Shown here: positions 1 through 37,630 of the stretch, in pieces | Numbering within the stretch: the stretch's first letter is position 1 | Layout of the letters: each line of letters starts with the position of its first letter | Virus record (IMG/VR): IMGVR_UViG_3300017782_000069 | Location: 1-37,630 of that record | DNA length: 37,630 nucleotides | Strand: one strand, 5' to 3' | DNA from: a virus | Notes under the pieces: generated by a model | The model's database searches: none | The model's input: the letters and a program-made list of their open reading frames with translations, nothing else | What the model was told of the DNA's origin: nothing | Made by a program: the position numbers and the translations under genes

Positions 1-123
1 AGTTTCCATTGTTACCCCTTATAAGCCCAAGACCTATCAGTAAGTTTCTCCATCACATCAGACTTTTTCAACGACTGCTTTTTGTTGAATCCATTAGTCT
101 GCCAAGTGCGAATACAAGCCTTC
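1..123. repeat. Terminal direct repeat, left copy
   Basis: These 123 bases are identical to the last 123 bases of the window. The simplest reading is that the sequence is a circular assembly (unit 37,507 bp) with overlapping ends. A physical terminal redundancy of this short length is possible but less likely, because the repeat runs through coding sequence of the leftward early operon. It contains the start codon of the 94-aa protein gene and the remnant 3' end of the replication gene. The repeat stops one base before the altered base of the amber codon at 123-125. Confidence 0.97.
12..122 (-). other. Cut-off 3' end of replication initiator gene, behind an amber codon
   Basis: Reading on in frame past the TAG at 125-123 gives 36 more sense codons and a TAA at 14-12. 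The peptide begins KACIRTWQTNGF. Joined to the upstream end ...NGWKVGRNKMKD it restores the C-terminal motif of phage helix-turn-helix replication proteins (GWKVGxNxMKDWKAAVRTW), with the stop standing in place of the conserved Trp. The restored TAA is two bases from the next start codon (9-7), whose GGGG ribosome-binding site (18-15) lies in this stretch. That spacing is what an intact operon would show. The segment is therefore a recently separated gene end or is reached by amber readthrough. Confidence 0.85.
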
Positions 124-644
124 TAGTCTTTCATTTTATTCCTTCCAACCTTCCAGCCGTTTGATTCATAGTAAGCGAACCACCTGTCAGCATCTACATT
201 GTAACCCTGTTGATTAATGTAACTAACGACTTCATCACGCTGTGGCGGTATATTATTAATTTTATTATTAACCTGTATTATTCCCTTAGAACTTTCTTTC
301 GTGGGGGTAGGGAAATTATTTTCTAGGGGGGTAGGAAAATTTTTGCTAGGGGTATCGCAATTATTTTCTACTATGTAAATGCGTCTTTCTTGTACCCTTT
401 TCGTACCCTTCTCATAAATCTCTTCACGCTGTATGTAGCCAGCATCTTCAAGCGCACCTAACCAATTAGTTATGGACCTATTCTTCACGTCATACAATTC
501 AGCAAAATGTGCATTAGTTGCCCAGCAGTAACCTCTCTCATTACATAACGCTGTTATCTCACCGTACAACAACTTAGCGTTTGCTGGTATTCGATTATCG
601 TACCTTACTGTGGCAGGTATGATTGCATAAAACCCCATGTGCAT
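123..644 (-). CDS. Helix-turn-helix replication initiator/replisome organizer, amber-truncated
   Basis: The 173-residue product starts with a winged-helix-like domain (about residues 5-95: an NAKLLYGEITALCNERGYCW opening, then a recognition-helix-like NRSITNWLGALEDAGYIQRE). This is the layout of phage replication initiator proteins that bind the origin and recruit the host replisome. A polar, Asn/Pro/Thr-rich linker (about 95-135) leads to the C-terminal motif WFAYYESNGWKVGRNKMKD, where the reading frame stops at TAG. In this family the motif continues with WKAAVRTW, and that continuation is present in frame downstream. An AGGAG site precedes the ATG. The gene follows the XRE regulator by one base. 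It is the only replication gene seen here, so the truncation matters. The family assignment is by motif and order, not by search. Confidence 0.75.
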   Translation of the reverse strand: MHMGFYAIIPATVRYDNRIPANAKLLYGEITALCNERGYCWATNAHFAELYDVKNRSITNWLGALEDAGYIQREEIYEKGTKRVQERRIYIVENNCDTPSKNFPTPLENNFPTPTKESSKGIIQVNNKINNIPPQRDEVVSYINQQGYNVDADRWFAYYESNGWKVGRNKMKD

Positions 645-7567: not shown

Positions 7568-10500
7568 ATGTCTAAGAAAACAGCAGCTAGCAAACTGATG
7601 GATATGTTCTTTCAGGAAGGTGATTACGACCCACGATATGCTATGCGTAAGTTAGACCCTATAGAAGGCAAGCCTGTTGTTGAGCAGAGACAAGTAATAC
7701 CAGAGAATCCAATAACATTAGAGCAGCTCGAAGGCAGACCATATTTAACTACCATGTCAGACAGGACTGCAGCTGGTGGTTTATTAACTGGCTTCGGTGA
7801 CAAGCAGCTGGGCTACCCTGTTAACCTTACAGGTGGTCAAGACTTCATGAGAGACTTCACACAGAACCCTAACCTATGGGCGTCTGGTGATACAGTTGTG
7901 CCCAAGATGGTTAAGGCTGCAAGAGAGTTAGAAGCAGAGTTTGGGCAGCCGCCAGTATTGATGCCGTGGCGTATGGCTCCAACAGGGTCAGACTTTGCTG
8001 GTATGACTGGCAAGACAATGTTGAGTTATGCAGCTGGTAATATGCCTACTACATTTAAGAAAGAAGTAGATGGCTTTATGAAGCTGTATGTGCCTGACTG
8101 GAAAGGTGTAGATAACCCAGCAAGTGGTGCACAGTTTGATGCGCTGCCAGATGGAGCAAGAAAACAAGTACAGCAGCAGTTAGATAAGCTATTCAGAAAC
8201 AAAGGCGGCACTACGCTGCCACAATCACGCCTAGCTATTGCTGACCAATCGCAGTTGACTGCACCAGTAGGCGGCTTCAAGAACGTAGGGCTAATAGATA
8301 CCTCACAAGACGCACTCCGTGGAGCAGGTAACCCAACATACCCATCAGCTCTAGCAGGTGACTATCTAGGCACGTTAGATACAAACGTAACTGCAATGGA
8401 TTTAAACCCAGCACGCTATGCACGCGCACGCAACCCTGACGGCTCTTTTGTCGAAGGACCAGAAGGTAAGGACTTGTTAAGCACTAAGACAGCTCCTAGA
8501 CGCTCTATGGAAGTAAACTACTATGGTGGGCTATTAGACGAGCCATTGCTGCGTGACTTAGAGGACCGTGGATTTAAGCTAAAGTCTGGTGTGCTCCCAA
8601 CGCTGGCAACATTAGGCGTAGCTGCACAAGGTCTGTTAGGTAGTGAAGAGGCAGATGCAGCTATCATACCTAAGCTAGCACAGACTACGCAGCGAGCTAA
8701 TACTGTGCCAACAGCTAAAGCAGCTGATGCGTATCTAGAAAAACAAGGCGCAACAGGCAAGTCTATAGATTATGGGGCAGGCTTTGGTATCAATGCTAAG
8801 GCTATTAACTATGATGATACGTTTGAGCCATTCGCAGAAGAAGGCTTTACGCCAACGTATGCTAACTCTGCTGATATACCTGAGAACACGTATGGAAAAC
8901 TAGTAAGCACTAATGTTTTGAACGTCATACCGCCTGATTTGCGTGATGATGCAGTGTTAAGTATTGGTAAGATACTAGAGCCTAACGGCATGGCTGTTAT
9001 CCAGACTCGTTCTGCTAGCGCTGTTAATGAGTTGAAAAAGTCTAAGACAGCTATCCCACAAGATGAGCCAGCATCATTCTTAACAAGTAAAGGGTCGTAT
9101 CAAAAAGGGTTCACGCGCGATGAGCTGCAAGGTTATGTGCAGGGCTTACTTGGTGATAACTTTGATGTACAGAAAGTGCCAGCTAAAGACATACCTAACG
9201 GCTCAGCTATATCAGTTAAGAAGCTAAGCCAAGCTGCACCATTAGTTGTTGGTGGTGGGCTACTTGCAGGTGAGGATGCAGATGCAGCTATAGTGCCATC
9301 AGCGCTTAAATCTATAGCCTTAGATGCAATGGCAGAAGTGCCACGTAAAACGCCTACATCATACACTGGCTGGAAGAAAGCATTAAACAAAGCTGGCATC
9401 AAAGATGATGAGCTAAAACAGATGGGCTTCAAGCGTGAGTTTGAGTTTAGGCAGCGGTCACAAGATATCACTAGGAAAGAGGTAGAGGATTTCTTAGCAG
9501 AGAACCAGTACAACATCAGGGAAGAGACGCTTGGGCAGACAAAGTCGTTTGGCGAAGTAGTGCACGACCCAGAGCTAAATACCTACAACGCAGAAATGCC
9601 ATTCATTAGTGACAATGAAACTTTTCATACAAGAGCAGAAGCTGAGGCGTATGTAGCGCGCAACCCAGAGATAATGACTGACTATCAATATGGTCCATAT
9701 ACGCTTACTGGCGCTGAAGGCAATAACTACCGTGAGATATTACTCATGGATGGTCCAGAAGCTGATAAGTATGAAGCTCTCACAGATGAAATGCTTAAAT
9801 TAGAAAATGAAATAACAGATGGCATAGGTGCTCCAAGAGGATATCTGGATAGAGATGTCTTAATGGAATTTGATGATAGTAGCCAGTTTAAAGAGCCTTT
9901 TAAAAGGCTGCAGAAGGTGCGAGAAGAAAGAAACAGGCTGCCACAGCCATTTATACATCAGCACTATGACGATAAAGAAAACATATTGTCACATCTACGT
10001 GTAGCTGACCGTGACCTAGAAGATGGCAGCAGCACGTTGATGGTAGAAGAGATACAGTCAGACTTGCATCAGCGTGGTCAGGAGCATGGGTATGCCAAGC
10101 CAAATGCTTTAGAGGATATCGAGGCGCAACTTAAAAGTGTAAACAGTGAGCTGCAAGCATTGAAATCAAGTGCAGTTACACAGTGGGCTGAAGAGAATAT
10201 GCCTGAAGTTTACAAAAAGGCGTATACCTTTGATGGCAGCATAACTGCGGATGAGTCTACTGCTTTGCGAAGAAAAATGGTCAAGGCATTCGAAGAGGAT
10301 TACAAAAAGCGCACAGGCAAAGATAGAAATGAAGAGTTTGAAAGGCTAGCAGATTTAAGAGACAGTCTAAAAAAACGGCAGCTCAAAACTATGAACGCTG
10401 CACCAGATATGCCATTTAAGTCTGATGACAAGTCTAGCTGGTATGACTTAGCATTTAAGCGCTCACTGATGGAAGCAGCTGATGGTGACTACGACAGCAT

Positions 10501-11407
10501 ATCATTTACTACTGGGCAGCAGCAGGTAGACAGATATGGTGAGTCAGCAGAGGGCGGTGTTAAGACGTTCTACGATAAGACGCTGCCTAATCACATTAAC
10601 AAGTGGGCTAAACAATATGGCGTTAAGCTAGAGCGTAAGCCTATAAGAGTTGGCGAGAAAGATTACAGTGTAGATACGTATGATGATGGCTCATACTATG
10701 TGCGTAATGAAGAAGGCGGAATCATAGAAGATTTCGATAGCCTTGAAGAAGCAGAAGCATACATTAAAAAGCACCATGAGATACAGGATGTATACACACT
10801 GAAGATACCTGAAAAGATGCGTAAGGATATACGCGAGAAAGGTATGCCATTGTTTGCACAGACAGGTTTAACCATTGGGGGTGCAACAGCTGCAAGTGGT
10901 TTGTTATCGCCTAAAGCACAGGCTAACGAGGCTAGAATGCAGGGCTTGCTTAGCGATTCTGAAATGCGTCAAGAGGTGGTAAAAGGTGCTGCAGTAGTGC
11001 CTGATTTAACAGCTGGTTTAGTAGAGCAGTTTGGGCGTGATTTAGTTAACTTTACTGCTGGCACTATAAACCCAGATTATGGAGATATTGCAGAGGGCAG
11101 CGTATTCCCAGTAACTGAGGGTGGCAAGGCTACGTTGAGTAAAGCAGGCGAAGCATTTATGAAGTATGCAGCGCCAACGCTAGCGAAAGGTGTCAATTCG
11201 TTATTAGATTATGAGCCTATAATTGGACCAACAGCGCGCGACCAGATGAAGTTTGTTGCACAGCAGTATGAAAAGCTGCCTGAGTCAGTAAAAGAAGAGG
11301 TCACGCCAAGATTAGGTTATGCAGGTTTGCTAGCTCTCACAGCAGTACCAACTGGCAAGGCAGTAAAGAAAAGCATACAAAAACGTAAAAAAAGTAAACA
11401 ACAGTGA
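7568..11407 (+). CDS. Large mosaic polyvalent-type virion protein with methyltransferase-like domain
   Basis: A 1279-aa multidomain protein. Residues about 55-320 form a phage-conserved block (TMSDRTAAGGLLTGF, GGQDFM, APTGSDFAGMTGKTMLSYAAGN). Residues about 385-550 look like a class I SAM methyltransferase: motif I IDYGAGFG (400-407) and VSTNVLNVIPP (446-456), but no DPPY/NPPY catalytic tetrad. A further conserved block has HLRVADRDLEDG, VEEIQSDLHQRG and FTTGQQQVDRYG (about 805-1000). Three hydrophobic stretches (343-358, 558-568, 1100-1113) end in EEADAA, EDADAA and AQANEA. Such proteins are often packaged and injected to act early in the host; that role is inferred. It lies between terL and the adaptor. 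Confidence 0.7.
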   Translation: MSKKTAASKLMDMFFQEGDYDPRYAMRKLDPIEGKPVVEQRQVIPENPITLEQLEGRPYLTTMSDRTAAGGLLTGFGDKQLGYPVNLTGGQDFMRDFTQNPNLWASGDTVVPKMVKAARELEAEFGQPPVLMPWRMAPTGSDFAGMTGKTMLSYAAGNMPTTFKKEVDGFMKLYVPDWKGVDNPASGAQFDALPDGARKQVQQQLDKLFRNKGGTTLPQSRLAIADQSQLTAPVGGFKNVGLIDTSQDALRGAGNPTYPSALAGDYLGTLDTNVTAMDLNPARYARARNPDGSFVEGPEGKDLLSTKTAPRRSMEVNYYGGLLDEPLLRDLEDRGFKLKSGVLPTLATLGVAAQGLLGSEEADAAIIPKLAQTTQRANTVPTAKAADAYLEKQGATGKSIDYGAGFGINAKAINYDDTFEPFAEEGFTPTYANSADIPENTYGKLVSTNVLNVIPPDLRDDAVLSIGKILEPNGMAVIQTRSASAVNELKKSKTAIPQDEPASFLTSKGSYQKGFTRDELQGYVQGLLGDNFDVQKVPAKDIPNGSAISVKKLSQAAPLVVGGGLLAGEDADAAIVPSALKSIALDAMAEVPRKTPTSYTGWKKALNKAGIKDDELKQMGFKREFEFRQRSQDITRKEVEDFLAENQYNIREETLGQTKSFGEVVHDPELNTYNAEMPFISDNETFHTRAEAEAYVARNPEIMTDYQYGPYTLTGAEGNNYREILLMDGPEADKYEALTDEMLKLENEITDGIGAPRGYLDRDVLMEFDDSSQFKEPFKRLQKVREERNRLPQPFIHQHYDDKENILSHLRVADRDLEDGSSTLMVEEIQSDLHQRGQEHGYAKPNALEDIEAQLKSVNSELQALKSSAVTQWAEENMPEVYKKAYTFDGSITADESTALRRKMVKAFEEDYKKRTGKDRNEEFERLADLRDSLKKRQLKTMNAAPDMPFKSDDKSSWYDLAFKRSLMEAADGDYDSISFTTGQQQVDRYGESAEGGVKTFYDKTLPNHINKWAKQYGVKLERKPIRVGEKDYSVDTYDDGSYYVRNEEGGIIEDFDSLEEAEAYIKKHHEIQDVYTLKIPEKMRKDIREKGMPLFAQTGLTIGGATAASGLLSPKAQANEARMQGLLSDSEMRQEVVKGAAVVPDLTAGLVEQFGRDLVNFTAGTINPDYGDIAEGSVFPVTEGGKATLSKAGEAFMKYAAPTLAKGVNSLLDYEPIIGPTARDQMKFVAQQYEKLPESVKEEVTPRLGYAGLLALTAVPTGKAVKKSIQKRKKSKQQ

Positions 11408-13297: not shown

Positions 13298-15601
13298 ATG
13301 TTAAATTCGGGCGTATCATTACAAAGGCTTGCTACAAAAGCAGGGGTAGGCTTTACCCCAAAGAAACTGTTTTCCAATGGTGAAGCAGGGGTGTGGTATG
13401 ACCCTAGTGACGTTGAAGCATCACTAACTTGGCGTAGGAATCTACTAGAGTATACAGAAAGTTTTGATAGCAGTGCTTACTCTAAAGGCACGAATACAAC
13501 TATAACTGCAAGTCATGCAACCTATATAGATGGCTCTAGTGCGGATAGGGTACAAATGCCTGCTTCAGCAGGTACTTATATTGTGCAGTCTGTTAGTCTT
13601 ACTGCAGGTAAAACGTACACAGTTAGCGCATTCGTAAAAACTAATGGTGCCCCAAACATAGATATAGGGTTTGGCACTTCGATTTCAAGCGGAGTCAGCT
13701 ATGGCGCAACCGCATCAGCTACATCTTCATGGGCAAGGGTGAGCTTCACATATACAGCCGCTTCAACTGCAACTTATTGGGCAGGTATTGATAATCGAGG
13801 TAACACTAGTGCTGTAGATATACACTTGTATGGATTACAGGTAGAAGAAGGCTCTACAGCTACAGAATATCAACCTATCCGTAGCACGTTTGATAATGCG
13901 TTTAAGCAGGCTTTCCCTAAACATACACTGTATCAAGATGAAAAAGGTTTAACGCCTGTAACAGGTTTAGGGCAGTCTGTAGGCGAAATGTTAGATAAGT
14001 CGCAGGGATTGAAGTTTGGTGACGAGTTAGTTGTTAATGGTACATACGATAGCAATATAAATGGTTGGACTGTGCCTTCAGGTTCAGCTTCTACAATATC
14101 TTATTCAAACGGTGCATTAGCGGCAACTAGAGGCAACGAAGCTATAGCTGTGTCTACGCTTTCTACGCCAGTAGTAACAGGAAAAACTTATAGATTAGAG
14201 TTTGATATTGTATCTAAAAGCCATGATGGTGGTTGGGTATATGTAAAATTAAATAGTTTTTTTACATCCCAGAACAGTACCTATGGCAAAAGCACAGGGA
14301 AAAAAATATATACATTTACTGCAACATCAGGCGCAAACGCTATTGAAATATTTGCAGGTGGTATTGGTGTTTTCGATTTTGTAATAGATAACGTATCAGT
14401 AAAAGAGATACAAGGCTCACACGCTACACAATCTGATTCTACTAAACGCCCTGTATTCGCAAGACATCCTGAACGCGGTAGAGTTAATCTGTTAAAGTAC
14501 ACAGAAGAGTTTGATAATGGTTTCTGGTCTAAAAATCAATCTACCGTATCTTCTAATTTAATTGTTGCTCCAGATGGCACAAATACAGCAGATAAAATAG
14601 TTGAAAGCAATACTAATTCAAATCACTATGTGCAAGGTACTGCAACATTAAACGGTACAGCACTAACAGGAACTTGTTATATAAAAGCAGGTGAGCGTAC
14701 ATTTGTTAGGCTAAGAATAAACGGCTCATCAAGCAGTGTTCGTGCGTGGTTTAACCTGTCAAACGGTACTGTAGACAGCGTGGATGCAGGTGGCACAGCT
14801 TCGATAGAAGATGCAGGTAATGGTTGGTATAGATGTCAATTGACAGAAATCAACAACACTACATCTGGCACAGGTGGCTTGCAAGTTTTTTTACAGACAG
14901 CAGGCTCATTTCAAACAAGCTATCAAGGTGATGGCTCATCAGGGGTATACGTTTGGGGCGCACAACTAGAAGAAGCCAACGAAGCTACAGGCTATCAAAA
15001 AGTAGTAGACGATTACGACATTACAGAGAGTGGTTATAAGTCTGTTTACTATCTACAGTTTGATGGTATTAATGACACTATGGCTGTCTCACCAGTTACA
15101 AGCACAGATGCTCCAATAAGTGTGTTTATGGGGCATGATACTGAAGGTAATAGCAGTTCAACAGGGTATTTTTTAGATATAGAAGATGGTCGGTTCTTGC
15201 TTGCAGGCGGAGGTTATTACACTAATGCATCAAGTTGGCAATTCGGTACAAATATAGATGCTACTGCAAAAGGGGTATCTACAGTTGTTTCTGATGGCAC
15301 AAATGCAGACTATCGTAGAGATGGCATAGTTGAACGCACAGGTGTTTTAGGTAACGTGTCTATACAAGGCGCAATAGCTATATTTTCACGTTATGACTAT
15401 ACCACACAGTTAACTAATGGGAATATGTATCAGCTTGTTATACGCGGTGCTACATCAACAGACAAAGAAATAGACCAAGCAGAAGAGTTTGTAGCTATTA
15501 AGACAGGCTTGAAGTCAGAAGTAGTAGGACTAGCTACACTAGACTTAAACTTCGGTGCTAACACATATACAGCTAGGAACAGCAATGGGAGCGTACTATG
15601 A
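13298..15601 (+). CDS. Spike/fibre protein 1 with jelly-roll and LamG-like modules
   Basis: A 767-aa modular surface protein with three units: a carbohydrate-binding-like jelly roll (NLLEYTESFD ... VSAFVKTN ... GLQVEEGSTATEYQP, about 48-200), another (VVNGTYDSNINGW ... DNVSVKEI, about 245-370), and a third starting NLLKYTEEFDNGFW that ends WGAQLEEANEATGYQ (about 395-570). A LamG-like lectin segment follows (YLQFDGINDTMAV onward). Such domains bind glycans on the host surface. The C-terminus LDLNFGANTYTA looks like the start of another module that continues in the next gene, joined by an ATGA overlap. Confidence 0.82.
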   Translation: MLNSGVSLQRLATKAGVGFTPKKLFSNGEAGVWYDPSDVEASLTWRRNLLEYTESFDSSAYSKGTNTTITASHATYIDGSSADRVQMPASAGTYIVQSVSLTAGKTYTVSAFVKTNGAPNIDIGFGTSISSGVSYGATASATSSWARVSFTYTAASTATYWAGIDNRGNTSAVDIHLYGLQVEEGSTATEYQPIRSTFDNAFKQAFPKHTLYQDEKGLTPVTGLGQSVGEMLDKSQGLKFGDELVVNGTYDSNINGWTVPSGSASTISYSNGALAATRGNEAIAVSTLSTPVVTGKTYRLEFDIVSKSHDGGWVYVKLNSFFTSQNSTYGKSTGKKIYTFTATSGANAIEIFAGGIGVFDFVIDNVSVKEIQGSHATQSDSTKRPVFARHPERGRVNLLKYTEEFDNGFWSKNQSTVSSNLIVAPDGTNTADKIVESNTNSNHYVQGTATLNGTALTGTCYIKAGERTFVRLRINGSSSSVRAWFNLSNGTVDSVDAGGTASIEDAGNGWYRCQLTEINNTTSGTGGLQVFLQTAGSFQTSYQGDGSSGVYVWGAQLEEANEATGYQKVVDDYDITESGYKSVYYLQFDGINDTMAVSPVTSTDAPISVFMGHDTEGNSSSTGYFLDIEDGRFLLAGGGYYTNASSWQFGTNIDATAKGVSTVVSDGTNADYRRDGIVERTGVLGNVSIQGAIAIFSRYDYTTQLTNGNMYQLVIRGATSTDKEIDQAEEFVAIKTGLKSEVVGLATLDLNFGANTYTARNSNGSVL

Positions 15602-17211
15602 GTGCATTCAGTGAATTAATAGACTTTACACGCTCTTCTACTGGTACATACTTAGACAGTGTTGTGTATGGCGATGAATTAGTTACTAATGGTACGTTTG
15701 ATACTGACAGTGATTGGGCTAAAGGGACTGGATGGGCTATTAGTGGTGGTACTGCATCTAAAACAGCAGGCACAGGGTCATCAATAGTTTCTACTACTTT
15801 GAGTGGAACAATAGGTAAATCCTATTTGCTTACTTTTGATTTAACTCTTAGCGCAGGTGTTATCAACTCTACATTAGGCGCGTCTGTTACACCTGTTTAC
15901 GACTCTTCTGGTAGTTATGCAGAAATTTTGAAGCCTACTACTACAGGCGCGTTTTACTTTTATGGCAGTGCTGCTTTTGCAGGCTCAATAGACAACGTAT
16001 CTGTAAAAGAAATCATAGGCGGTCAGGGTACAGCAGGCACACCTCTACTTAGAACAGCAGATACTAACGAACCACGCCTAGAGTATGATGCTAGTGGTCA
16101 GCCATTAGGTCTGTTGATAGAAGAGCAGAGAACAAACTTAATTAGTTCAAGTAACTTCAATAATGTTACTAAGGAAAATGTAACTACAGTTAACGATTAC
16201 GCGGTTGCCCCTGATGGAACGAACACCGCAGTTGCAATGTTTGAGACAACAAATAATTATTTTCACAGAGCATACAACACTGCATCTTTTTTAAATGGGA
16301 ACACTTACACGCAAAGCGTTTTCTTGAAATCAATAGGCGGCAGGGCAGGACAGCTTACCATGACTTCTTCTGGATTCGGCACTATTCATGCTAACTTTGA
16401 TTTAGTTAACGGTGTTGTAGGCACAAAAAATAATTGTGAAAGCCAGATTACGCCAGTTGGTAATGGTTGGTATCGTTGCTCTATAACAGCTACAGCAATA
16501 GGCGATTCGGGCGGTGATGCTAGTGTTGTTTCTGTGACATCACCAACAAGCACAAGGTTGCAAAACTATGCGGGTGATACGTCTAAAGGCTTATTAGTTT
16601 ATGGACTGCAAGTAGAACAGGGCGCATTCCCTACATCCTATATCCCTACAAGTGGCAGTACAGTTACTCGTAATCACGATGTTGCAAGCACGACTGCGTT
16701 CAAGTATCACCAAAACAATACACAAGGAACTCTATACGCAGAGTTTACTCCTAACATTAGCAGTACGAGCTATAAAAGGGCGGCTGAGTTTTACTACTCA
16801 AACCTTAGATTTTCTATACAAATGTATACAGGTAAGATAGCTTATTACACGAGAAATGCCGCGAACAGCACAAATAACTCAATAGGTACGCAAAATCCAT
16901 ATACGCCATACCGCACACAAAAATCTGCATTCACAGTGAGTGAAGGCTATGCGGCAAAATCTTCTAACGGCTTAGATGTAGAAAGCGAAACAGATGTATT
17001 GGGTCTAGGCGAAGATAATGTGGTTTTATATATTGGTCAAAATAACGCAGGGGCTTATATAAATGGACATATTAAACACCTGCGATACTTCCCAACTAAG
17101 CTATCTAACGATGAATTAGTAGAACTAACCAAGCCATCATCCTCACCTACAATGAGCCTAACATTTGATGGACAAGCAACCAGTGAATTAGTAGAGGGTT
17201 TACATGACTAA
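15598..17211 (+). CDS. Spike/fibre protein 2, paralogue
   Basis: This 537-aa protein opens FSELIDFTRSSTGTYLDS, then VTNGTFDTDSDW ... DNVSVKEI, then the phage spike-fibre core EPRLEYDASGQPLGLLIEEQ RTNL ... APDGTNTA ... GNGWYRCSIT ... FPTSYIPTSGSTVTR, then a LamG-like end (GTLYAEFTPN ... HIKHLRYFPTKLSNDEL). It is a paralogue of its two neighbours. Its ATG overlaps the upstream stop by 4 bases and its own end overlaps the next gene by 8. It probably recognises host glycans; the sugar is unknown. Confidence 0.85.
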   Translation: MSAFSELIDFTRSSTGTYLDSVVYGDELVTNGTFDTDSDWAKGTGWAISGGTASKTAGTGSSIVSTTLSGTIGKSYLLTFDLTLSAGVINSTLGASVTPVYDSSGSYAEILKPTTTGAFYFYGSAAFAGSIDNVSVKEIIGGQGTAGTPLLRTADTNEPRLEYDASGQPLGLLIEEQRTNLISSSNFNNVTKENVTTVNDYAVAPDGTNTAVAMFETTNNYFHRAYNTASFLNGNTYTQSVFLKSIGGRAGQLTMTSSGFGTIHANFDLVNGVVGTKNNCESQITPVGNGWYRCSITATAIGDSGGDASVVSVTSPTSTRLQNYAGDTSKGLLVYGLQVEQGAFPTSYIPTSGSTVTRNHDVASTTAFKYHQNNTQGTLYAEFTPNISSTSYKRAAEFYYSNLRFSIQMYTGKIAYYTRNAANSTNNSIGTQNPYTPYRTQKSAFTVSEGYAAKSSNGLDVESETDVLGLGEDNVVLYIGQNNAGAYINGHIKHLRYFPTKLSNDELVELTKPSSSPTMSLTFDGQATSELVEGLHD

Positions 17212-18391
17212 GACAGTAACTACAGGTAAAGCCACAGACCTAATCACATTCACTAGGTCTACTACAGGTACATATTTAGGTTCTGATGGTTTACTTAAAA
17301 CTGCTAATACTAATGAGCCTAGAATAGAATATGATGCAGACGGTAATCTAAAAGGCTTGCTGATAGAAGAGCAGAGAAGTAACTTGCTACATCAAAGCGA
17401 AGCATTCAATAATGTCTATTGGGGTAAAGTGCAACTCAACACTCTTAGCAATGGGGTGACTGCACCAGATGGCACAACTGACACAATCACATTGTCTGCA
17501 TCAACTAGCAACGGTGCGTACATAGCAAGGAGTAATCTAGGGTCAGCAGGTCAGGGATACACAGCTAGTGTTTACGCTAAAGCAGGTACGCATGACATCA
17601 TACGCATTACAAATCAATCATCAGGAACAACTGGCGGTTGGTTTGATTTAACTAACGGTACGACACTATCAAGCAACGGTGCTAACAATGTATCACGCAT
17701 AGAGTATGTAGGTAACGGTTGGTACAGATGCAGTAGATATTTTGATAGTTGGATTAACACAAACAACGCATTGCTTTTTGGCGTATCTTTATTAGATGGA
17801 AGCACCCAATCAGCAGTAGGCGACACTGTAAGTCTTTGGGGCGCACAGTTAGAGTCAGGCTCATTCCCTACGTCATACATACCAACATCAGGTAGTACAG
17901 TAACACGCACTGCTGACATAGCTAATGTAAATCCAAGTACATTTGAACTAAATCAGAACGAATCAACCTTGCTTGTATCTGGCACATCTATGCCAACAAG
18001 AGGTGTAGGTACTGTTAAAGAGTTTTGGTGTGCATCTTTACACACAGCCAGTGGTTACGCAAATATGAGGTTTTATTCTGGTGGCGTTGCAAATTCAGCA
18101 GTGCAAGATGCTGTAGGTTTTGATAGCGGTGTTCAGTTTGATGCTACAGGTGCAACTATTTCTCCACCTGTCGAGTTTACTTCTGTACTCGCTATTAAAG
18201 ATAACGATGTAGGGTATGCAAACCAGAGCATGACAGGCGTGAATATAGACACATCGTCTACGTTCAGTGATTTTAATAACTTGCGTATAGGAAGCACAGG
18301 GTCAGGGTCATACCTAAATGGACACGTTAAGTCTGTAAAATACTACCCTGTAAGATTAACAAACAATCAATTAAAGGCATTAACACAATGA
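17204..18391 (+). CDS. Spike/fibre protein 3, paralogue
   Basis: A 395-aa protein with a single copy of the spike core: ATDLITFTRSTTGTYLGSDG, EPRIEYDADGNLKGLLIEEQ, NGWYRCSRYFDSW, LWGAQLESGSFPTSYIPTSG, and a C-terminal lectin-like end (YLNGHVKSVKYYPVRLTNNQL). It is the shortest of the three tandem paralogues and lacks the NGTFD jelly roll. Sequence signatures shared with the upstream gene show duplication and divergence. The stop overlaps the next start (ATGA). Confidence 0.85.
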   Translation: MTKTVTTGKATDLITFTRSTTGTYLGSDGLLKTANTNEPRIEYDADGNLKGLLIEEQRSNLLHQSEAFNNVYWGKVQLNTLSNGVTAPDGTTDTITLSASTSNGAYIARSNLGSAGQGYTASVYAKAGTHDIIRITNQSSGTTGGWFDLTNGTTLSSNGANNVSRIEYVGNGWYRCSRYFDSWINTNNALLFGVSLLDGSTQSAVGDTVSLWGAQLESGSFPTSYIPTSGSTVTRTADIANVNPSTFELNQNESTLLVSGTSMPTRGVGTVKEFWCASLHTASGYANMRFYSGGVANSAVQDAVGFDSGVQFDATGATISPPVEFTSVLAIKDNDVGYANQSMTGVNIDTSSTFSDFNNLRIGSTGSGSYLNGHVKSVKYYPVRLTNNQLKALTQ

Positions 18392-21086: not shown

Positions 21087-21461
21087 ATGTGGCAATCATT
21101 AGTTGGACCTATAGCTAATTTAGCTGGTGGCTATTTCAAGAACAAAGCGGAAGAGAAGCAGGCTAAGCATGAGGCTAAGATGAGCGTTATTAAGAGTGAC
21201 GCTGATTGGGAGTCTAAGATGGTTGATGCTTCGGCTAGCTCGTGGAAGGATGAATTTTGGACGCTAGTGCTATCTGTGCCTGTCTTTATGATTGGCTACG
21301 CCATTGTAGTAGATGACGTCACAGTTATTGATAGGGTAGAAAAAGGCTTTATCGCATTATCTGGGCTGCCTGAGTGGTATCAATATTTACTGTTTATAGC
21401 TATAAGCAGTAGTTTTGGTATCAAGGGTGCAAGTAAGCTGATGAATCTAAGGAACAAATAA
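21087..21461 (+). CDS. Holin, three-TM gene-transfer-release type
   Basis: The 124-aa protein has an N-terminal amphipathic part (PIANLAGGYFKNKAEEKQAK), WESKMVDASASSWKDEFW, and hydrophobic segments at TLVLSVPVFMIGYAIVV and YQYLLFIAISSSFGIKGASK. The order KDEFWTL ... LSGLPEWYQYLL ... GIKGASKLM matches the holin family named for gene-transfer-agent release. It would permeabilise the inner membrane to release the endopeptidase encoded at 35216. The ATG at 21087 follows GAGGTAG. Confidence 0.8.
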   Translation: MWQSLVGPIANLAGGYFKNKAEEKQAKHEAKMSVIKSDADWESKMVDASASSWKDEFWTLVLSVPVFMIGYAIVVDDVTVIDRVEKGFIALSGLPEWYQYLLFIAISSSFGIKGASKLMNLRNK

Positions 21462-23257
21462 TGGCAACAGTACCATTTGACATACCAGCAGGTGTTGTAC
21501 GGCACGGCACAGACAGCGAGTCAGCAGGTCGATGGCGTGATGTAAATTATGTGCGCTGGGAAAACGGCTCGCTGCGTCCTATAGGTGGCTGGCACGCACG
21601 CGAAGATAGAACTGACACAGCAAACACGGTAGAAGTAACACTAGGCACAAATGTGAAAGCGCGTGCAGCGTTAGCGTGGAAAAGCACATCAGGCACAGCG
21701 TGGATTGCTGCAGGTAGTTTCAACAATCTATTCAGCATTAATGAGGCGGGTACAGTAACAAGCATATTAGCTTCTACTATATCAGGAGCTACTGATGGCG
21801 CTGCAGAGAATGTTGGTTATGGTAAATATCTATACGGCAAGGGTTTTTACGGTGAGCCACGACCTACGTCTGGTGTTTTAGGTGATGGCAGCACATGGTC
21901 GCTAGACAGCTGGGGTGAGTACCTCGTAGCAGTAAATTCACATGACGGTGTTTTGCGTCAGTGGACTTTGACTGGCACTGCAGACCAAATTAGCACAACA
22001 GACACAGCTTTTCCTGCTAATAACGACAGCGTGGTAGTAACAGAGGAAAGATTCTTATTTGCGTTAGGCGCTGATAACGACCCTGCTAAAATCAAATGGT
22101 GTGACCGTGAAGATAATACAACATGGACACCATCTGCCACAAATGAAGCTGGCGACATTATATTAGACACAGTTGGCAAGATACAGCTAGGCTTACAGGT
22201 GCGCGGTAGAACGCTTATTTTAACTACAACAGATGCTCACGTAGCAACTTACAGTGGACCACCAGCAGTATATGGTTTTGAAAAAGTAGGCAGCAATTGT
22301 GGCGCTGTTAGCCGTCACTGCGCTGTAGCACATGAGCAAGGTGCATTCTGGATGGGCACTAATGGCTTTTATTTTTATGACGGTCAGTCTGTACGTGATA
22401 TACCGTGTGACGTGCAAGATTACGTGTTTAAAGGGATGAACTTTGAGCAGCAGGGTAAAGTATACGCTGTCAAAAACAGTAGGTTTAATGAGATATGGTG
22501 GTTTTATCCAAGCACATCTACTGCTGAAAACGACAGGTACGTGTATTACGATTACAAAGAAAATCACTGGGGTATAGGTATATTAGACAGGACCGCAGGT
22601 GTTGATGCTGGTGTGCACAGAACGCCTATATGGTTTTCTGCTACTGGTAAAGTATATGACCACGAAACAGGTTATACACATGAGCACACTGATAACGGTG
22701 AGCAAGTGTTTAGTTATGCTGAGTCAGGACCAGTAGAAGCAGGGCAAGGTGAGCGCATAATAAATGTGACAAAAGTTATCCCTGACCACAAAGCGCAAGG
22801 TGAGCATAACTTAGTTTTTAAAACACGAAACTATCCTAACGACCCTGAGACAACGAAGGGACCATTTAGTGCTATATCACCTACAAATGTGCGACTACAG
22901 GGCAGGCAGTTTAGGCTGCGAATCGACCCTAATAGCAAGCAAATTAATTACACTGAGTTAGCGGAAGAAGCATTAAAAGTAAGTGTTAGAAAAGCTAGTC
23001 CATACTCAGATGTATATATAAATGGTAGGCATATATTAGATATCTCTAACGATGGAAATGTTAGCGGAGCTGACGCTGTAGCTATTCTCGCACATGGCGC
23101 AGGCACACAAAGCTACGACTGGATAACAAACGAAGTTATTCCATATACATTGGCTAATTATCCAGAAACTGCAATAGTGTTTGACGTAACCTACAACACG
23201 CAAGATTGGACGTTAGGCAACCTAAAATTAGAAACTAAGCTAGGCGGAGCTAGATGA
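21461..23257 (+). CDS. Tail nozzle/P22 gp10-like protein with calcium-loop insertion
   Basis: A 598-aa beta-propeller-like protein (PFDIPAGVVRHGTDSES, WRDVNYVRWENGSLRPIGGW) of the P22 gp10/nozzle group that closes the portal and forms the short tail. The C-terminal family pattern, RQFRLRI then DWTLGNLKLE, is split here by about 90 residues (about 488-578). These include LDISNDGNVSGADAVAIL, a 12-residue dockerin/EF-hand-like loop with D527, S529, D531, G532, V534 and D538 in calcium-binding positions. Ca2+ binding and any role in tail-spike attachment are inferred. It starts at the holin stop (TAATG). Confidence 0.82.
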   Translation: MATVPFDIPAGVVRHGTDSESAGRWRDVNYVRWENGSLRPIGGWHAREDRTDTANTVEVTLGTNVKARAALAWKSTSGTAWIAAGSFNNLFSINEAGTVTSILASTISGATDGAAENVGYGKYLYGKGFYGEPRPTSGVLGDGSTWSLDSWGEYLVAVNSHDGVLRQWTLTGTADQISTTDTAFPANNDSVVVTEERFLFALGADNDPAKIKWCDREDNTTWTPSATNEAGDIILDTVGKIQLGLQVRGRTLILTTTDAHVATYSGPPAVYGFEKVGSNCGAVSRHCAVAHEQGAFWMGTNGFYFYDGQSVRDIPCDVQDYVFKGMNFEQQGKVYAVKNSRFNEIWWFYPSTSTAENDRYVYYDYKENHWGIGILDRTAGVDAGVHRTPIWFSATGKVYDHETGYTHEHTDNGEQVFSYAESGPVEAGQGERIINVTKVIPDHKAQGEHNLVFKTRNYPNDPETTKGPFSAISPTNVRLQGRQFRLRIDPNSKQINYTELAEEALKVSVRKASPYSDVYINGRHILDISNDGNVSGADAVAILAHGAGTQSYDWITNEVIPYTLANYPETAIVFDVTYNTQDWTLGNLKLETKLGGAR

Positions 23258-37235: not shown

Positions 37236-37516
37236 AGCTTTTTCCTCAACCATTTCTGTGAAATTATATCTGCCCTAGTTTCTAACAGGTCCCAGATAGA
37301 GGCGCGCGTTGGCGCCTTTTTAACTCTGAGCAGCTGCCCACTAGGGCGTAAATCCTCATCAGTACAAACCTGCCTGCCAGACAGCCTTGTTACCATTGTG
37401 TTTCTTTTGAGCCCTACGTACTCTGCGTACTCCTCGTAAGTGTAAGACTCACCGTTTTTAAAATGTCCATCTGTTCCAACAAACTCAATAAACTTCGTGT
37501 TTCTATGAGTTTCCAT
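37232..37516 (-). CDS. Hypothetical DNA-binding-like protein before NinB
   Basis: The 94-aa protein (HRNTKFIEFVGTDGHFKNGE, YTYEEYAEYVGLKRNTMVTRL, ... ISQKWLRKKL) has a likely helix-turn-helix at YAEYVGLKRNTMVTRLSG. It is a candidate regulator of the leftward operon. Its start lies two bases beyond the TAA that would close the full-length replication gene across the circle junction. GGGG precedes it. Confidence 0.7.
   Translation of the reverse strand: METHRNTKFIEFVGTDGHFKNGESYTYEEYAEYVGLKRNTMVTRLSGRQVCTDEDLRPSGQLLRVKKAPTRASIWDLLETRADIISQKWLRKKL
37300..37321 (+). terminator. Plus-strand terminator-like hairpin inside antisense gene
   Basis: AGGCGC-GCGTTG-GCGCCT followed by T (37317-37321) reads as a rho-independent terminator on the plus strand, lying inside the minus-strand 94-aa gene. 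It could stop late rightward transcripts before they run into the leftward promoter region. Six-base stem and five T give moderate strength. Confidence 0.4.
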
Positions 37517-37630
37517 TGTTACCCCTTATAAGCCCAAGACCTATCAGTAAGTTTCTCCATCACATCAGACTTTTTCAACGACTGCTTTTTGTTGAATCCA
37601 TTAGTCTGCCAAGTGCGAATACAAGCCTTC
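37508..37630. repeat. Terminal direct repeat, right copy
   Basis: Identical copy of bases 1-123. Together they show that the window closes on itself. If physical, it would be a short direct terminal repeat; as an assembly overlap it identifies the complete circular unit of 37,507 bp. Confidence 0.97.

Follow-up and report, generated by a model that had tools for sequence, protein, structure and literature searches.

The replication initiator gene of the metagenomic phage IMGVR_UViG_3300017782_000069 is interrupted by a premature amber codon, which we consider most probably (probability about 0.68) to be a real, recent and probably loss-of-function allele in a mixed phage population. One G-to-A change on the coding strand would turn an invariant tryptophan, Trp174, into TAG and thereby remove the final helix of the protein's C-terminal module. 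The window, meaning the whole stretch of DNA that was analysed, is 37,630 bp long, and its ends overlap by 123 bp to give a circle of 37,507 bp. It represents the circular genome of a tailed phage, which seems to rely on the host replisome and has a single winged-helix replication initiator. Encoded within it are terminase subunits, a portal, a scaffold, the major head protein, tail proteins and an endolysin, together with an Erf-like annealing protein, an exonuclease, SSB, and NinB- and NinG-like proteins. An earlier note on this DNA had described the initiator as the only replication gene, and this fits the annotation of the approximately 50 ORFs, in which no polymerase, helicase or primase was found, nor an integrase. 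The window contained neither tRNA genes (ARAGORN) nor Rfam matches. The features relevant to the initiator and to the contig ends were as follows:

126–644, minus strand: initiator as assembled, 173 aa, comprising the winged helix, a linker and helices 1 and 2 of the C-terminal module
123–125, minus strand: premature amber TAG at residue 174, TGG in relatives G001–G004
15–122, minus strand: 36 in-frame post-amber codons, conserved in relatives, encoding the rest of the last helix and a variable tail
12–14, minus strand: normal terminator TAA, 2 bases ahead of the next ATG in the circular genome
37232–37516, minus strand: next gene after the initiator, 94 aa, with no family match
1–123, no strand assigned: left copy of the 123 bp shared by the two ends, attributed to the assembler k-mer
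37508–37630, no strand assigned: right copy of the 123-bp terminal overlap, from comparison of the ends

Translation confirmed how the earlier note had described the locus: the frame of the initiator ORF (123–644, minus strand) stops at TAG, a further 36 codons continue in frame to a TAA, and the next gene begins 2 bases on. The 173-aa translation ends in NGWKVGRNKMKD immediately before the stop, and base 124 of the plus strand is the middle base of the coding-strand TAG. Past the amber the frame reads KACIRTWQTNGFNKKQSLKKSDVMEKLTDRSWAYKG, followed by TAA at 14–12; residues 174–184 of this read-through product constitute the last helix, with invariant R179 and W181 inside it, and the variable tail comes after. 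The next ATG lies at base 9 in circular coordinates (37516 − 37507) and is preceded by AAGGGG, which resembles a ribosome-binding site of its own. An internal restart producing a separate C-terminal fragment was rejected on inspection, as the in-frame ATG in the tail gives only about 13 residues. All other genes of the window appeared undisrupted, the amber being the only nonsense change and the only in-frame TAG that was detected.

Comparison with relatives placed the change on a strongly conserved codon. The closest relative was G001, with 97 % nucleotide identity (first 3 kb), followed by G003 (94 %), G002 (93 %) and G004 (71 %). All four carry TGG at the amber site and encode a full-length protein of 210–211 aa, which upholds the proposal that TGG had become TAG at a conserved Trp. 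The window and G001 do not differ from circular base −73 through 123 (197 bases); their first mismatch is at 124 and the next is at 135. The two next-closest relatives keep the frame after the amber with mostly silent changes, and by this sequence comparison the post-amber codons are real coding sequence. A DNA pattern allowing C or T equally at base 124 matched 23 viral contigs, every one of them with C. When a protein motif was used without requiring the Trp, W was present in 135 of 135 distinct family members and a stop in the window alone, a lone 'Q' match in this count being an unrelated protein. Some of the 135 loci had first been collected by peptide patterns that include W, and the 23-contig DNA scan is therefore the cleaner test. 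Judged against all of these relatives, the amber is derived, a tip mutation.

Conservation also extends beyond the stop. Aligned with its homologues as the earlier note had proposed, the restored protein produced neither of the opposing outcomes: relatives run past MKD, and the downstream codons are conserved. These alignments bear on the idea that the truncation is tolerated, with the 173-aa protein sufficient and the C-terminal helix dispensable in this lineage. The winged helix is whole and no further gene of the window is disrupted, as such a reading would have it, but W174, R179 and W181 are invariant both in 24 full-length proteins and in 69 diverse C-terminal modules, no homologue ending at or before the MKDWKAxVRTW motif was found (the tail beyond the motif was at least 14 residues among those found, 14 being the shortest), and the codons after the stop have not decayed, with zero changes relative to G001. 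We therefore regard a sufficient 173-aa protein as very unlikely.

As assembled, the protein retains an intact N-terminal HTH_36 winged helix (PF13730, 40.2 bits against a cut-off of 25, residues 18–71) and lacks the complete module ending MKDWKAxVRTW, its ORF stopping after MKD. The module is present only on read-through of the TAG, and the read-through protein matches phrog_19658 over residues 4–202. In AlphaFold2 models (mean pLDDT 71.6 and 72.1, with block means of 79–90 across the module), the N-terminal part folds as a winged helix, and the C-terminal module is small, with two helices and a hairpin ahead of a final helix that begins at W174; as modelled, the stop deletes this final helix and the tail. 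From its sequence relationships, the C-terminal module is a widespread, unnamed replication-associated module. Two PHROG families of unknown function, phrog_15768 and phrog_28809, matched it in 69 of 69 members, and a PDB sequence search gave no significant match. The pattern PxxxEVxxYCxERxNxVDAxxFxDxYxSKGWxVGRNKMKDWKAAVRTWE lies at 93–248 (minus strand) in the window and also in loci L002–L186. On both phage and bacterial contigs the module is fused to many differing N-terminal sequences, and 411 relatives were present in genome contigs.

The nearest characterized counterparts are DnaD/RepA-type winged-helix initiators and helicase loaders. The likeness consists of the N-terminal winged helix itself, of weak fold matches for the N-terminal domain (the DnaD N-domain 2v79 and initiators 4pql and 4pt7, none with an E-value below 0.001), of matches to PHROG replication initiation families including the DnaD-like phrog_186, and of weak matches of the module to the DnaD-like phrog_8489 in 10 of 69 members. 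The difference lies in the C-terminal module, for which there was no credible Pfam or NCBIfam family, no DnaB_2 match and no match in a fold search against the PDB. Deletion of the C-terminal region of Staphylococcus aureus DnaD results in loss of ssDNA and PriA binding, whilst tetramerisation is kept (PMC4909229). A truncated initiator that behaved analogously would still bind DNA yet not engage the replication machinery.

The amber also coincides with the point at which the circular contig was opened. The contig ends match over exactly 123 bp and extension to 124 bp fails; base 124 therefore directly follows the repeat, in agreement with what the earlier note had reported. The same note had guessed at a contig k-mer of 123; this gained support, since 123 is also the highest k in the MEGAHIT setting '--k-list 23,43,63,83,103,123' documented for JGI data (PMC6081815, PMC6243002), and we infer k=123 for the assembly of this record. 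The circular relatives G002 and G004 have end overlaps of 141 bp and 99 bp at other places, and their break-point regions are only 67–80 % alike. Given that the overlap equals the documented k and that the overlaps of the circular relatives differ from it, the 123-bp repeat is best explained as made by the assembler, and a biological terminal repeat was rejected.

A joint graph of the window and G001 at k=123 contained forward branches at 37 of 37,507 positions, base 124 among them. The position of the break could be arbitrary, in which case it would land on a forward branch about 0.1 % of the time (0.2 % in both directions) and on base 124 about once in 37,507. A contig opened by a bubble should start with the (k+1)-mer that ends in the variant base; here that is 1–124, ending in the amber T. 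The break therefore falls on a branch that this graph predicts, which we regard as good indirect evidence that the sample probably also held an intact version, probably a G001-like strain. The suggestion that two alleles had caused the break is thus supported, with one refinement: base 124 is indeed a branch, but a C/T polymorphism within a single strain is not required, as an identical graph would result from a sister strain of the G001 type that coexisted in the sample and carried C at 124.

An error of sequencing, amplification or assembly could in principle yield the same contig, the true phage codon being TGG and the T stemming from damage, PCR or a consensus step. Damage and PCR very commonly produce C-to-T changes, the amber is the sole nonsense in the window and falls exactly at the contig break, and the contig of the closest relative likewise has one G-to-A nonsense. 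Nevertheless, a strain with C at 124 would branch from G001 at 135 instead, and the retained k=123 path would need T in 124 overlapping 124-mers, which should be beyond one faulty read of Illumina length. On balance, we consider such an error unlikely.

Derived changes were polarized against the outgroups G002 and G003. Of the derived coding changes on the window branch, 222 were synonymous, 40 were missense and 1 was nonsense; the corresponding counts for the G001 branch were 230, 39 and 1. The expectation without selection is 27–45 nonsense changes per 222 synonymous, and with 1 observed, nonsense alleles are evidently strongly purged as a rule. The private nonsense change of G001 is Trp222 TGG to TGA at position 3207 of L099 (G001), in the homologue of the window virion structural gene at 21461–23257, which is otherwise 99 % identical. 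That the two sister contigs each have a single Trp-to-stop change of their own, and in different genes, is as expected of recent harmful alleles or of damage, and not of recoding. A further in-frame TGA, at position 10722 of L099 (G001), is situated in the homologue of the window gene at 13298–15601, a fast-diverging tail protein with 48 % identity, and may mark a gene that is split in two instead of a nonsense allele. That gene belongs to a region, 13298–18391, of three tandem genes that all match one tail family, phrog_5939; it is the fastest-diverging part of the genome relative to the three closest relatives (protein identity 31–73 %), whereas most window genes outside it exceed 90 % identity in at least one of them. 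Elsewhere, window 7568–11407 encodes a protein of 1279 aa that matched neither Pfam nor PHROG families; three relatives have it at 54–86 % identity, and it was not found in G001.

Genome-wide recoding of TAG, which the earlier note had dismissed, was excluded by the 11 other genes that are conserved in relatives and terminate in TAG, and by the absence of an encoded tRNA. The example it had given, ssb (2302–2688), does terminate in TAG. Phages with reassigned TAG, such as phAss-1 (PMC10607447), share the presence of an in-frame TAG inside a conserved gene; the window differs in its single in-frame TAG, its 11 TAG terminators, its lack of tRNA genes and its relatives with TGG.

Local readthrough is a separate matter. 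Host amber suppression or a leaky TAG might supply enough full-length initiator for the allele to be near-neutral or conditional, and this would suit the intact codons beyond the stop and the fact that TAG is the version on the contig path. A TAG followed by A, as here, also counts as a relatively leaky context in E. coli. Set against this are the 11 conserved genes that terminate in TAG, the lack of any tRNA in the window and the occurrence of TAG at initiator codon 174 in no relative, and we judge functional readthrough to be decidedly unlikely. A specific form of it, in which the amber is the commoner allele, maintained by a host amber suppressor such that phage replication is conditional on a host tRNA, appears very unlikely indeed.

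We accordingly favour a recent and probably loss-of-function allele segregating in a mixed population. If DnaD-type proteins are a guide, the C-terminal module would probably make the contact to the replication machinery of the host. Most likely the sample also contained phages in which the codon is intact, belonging either to the same strain or to a G001-like sister, so that the assembler would have opened the circle at this point. The amber allele itself may have had a modest true frequency, or may have been kept up temporarily by complementation in mixed infections. Counting against a loss-of-function allele is that the contig path carries the amber. If bubble removal by MEGAHIT keeps the deeper arm, the amber would have been more frequent than the intact codon, an unexpected state for a disrupted gene that is presumably essential.

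Classical laboratory amber mutants in phage replication genes include those in lambda O and P. The present allele resembles them as a single-base TGG-to-TAG change in a replication initiator, with intact relatives and an intact remainder of the genome; they were selected in the laboratory, in contrast to the window allele, which comes from a metagenome consensus. Literature searches on nonsense variants in metagenomic phages and on bubbles in assembly graphs found little.

These results indicate that the consensus sequence of a metagenomic phage can include a broken, essential-looking gene, and that the opening point of a circular contig can mark strain variation. As the window and its 97 % identical relative each carry one, in different genes, a lone nonsense codon in a contig of this kind calls for read evidence before it is interpreted as truncation or recoding. 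Should the amber prove both common and functional, it would represent a natural case of suppressor-dependent phage replication.
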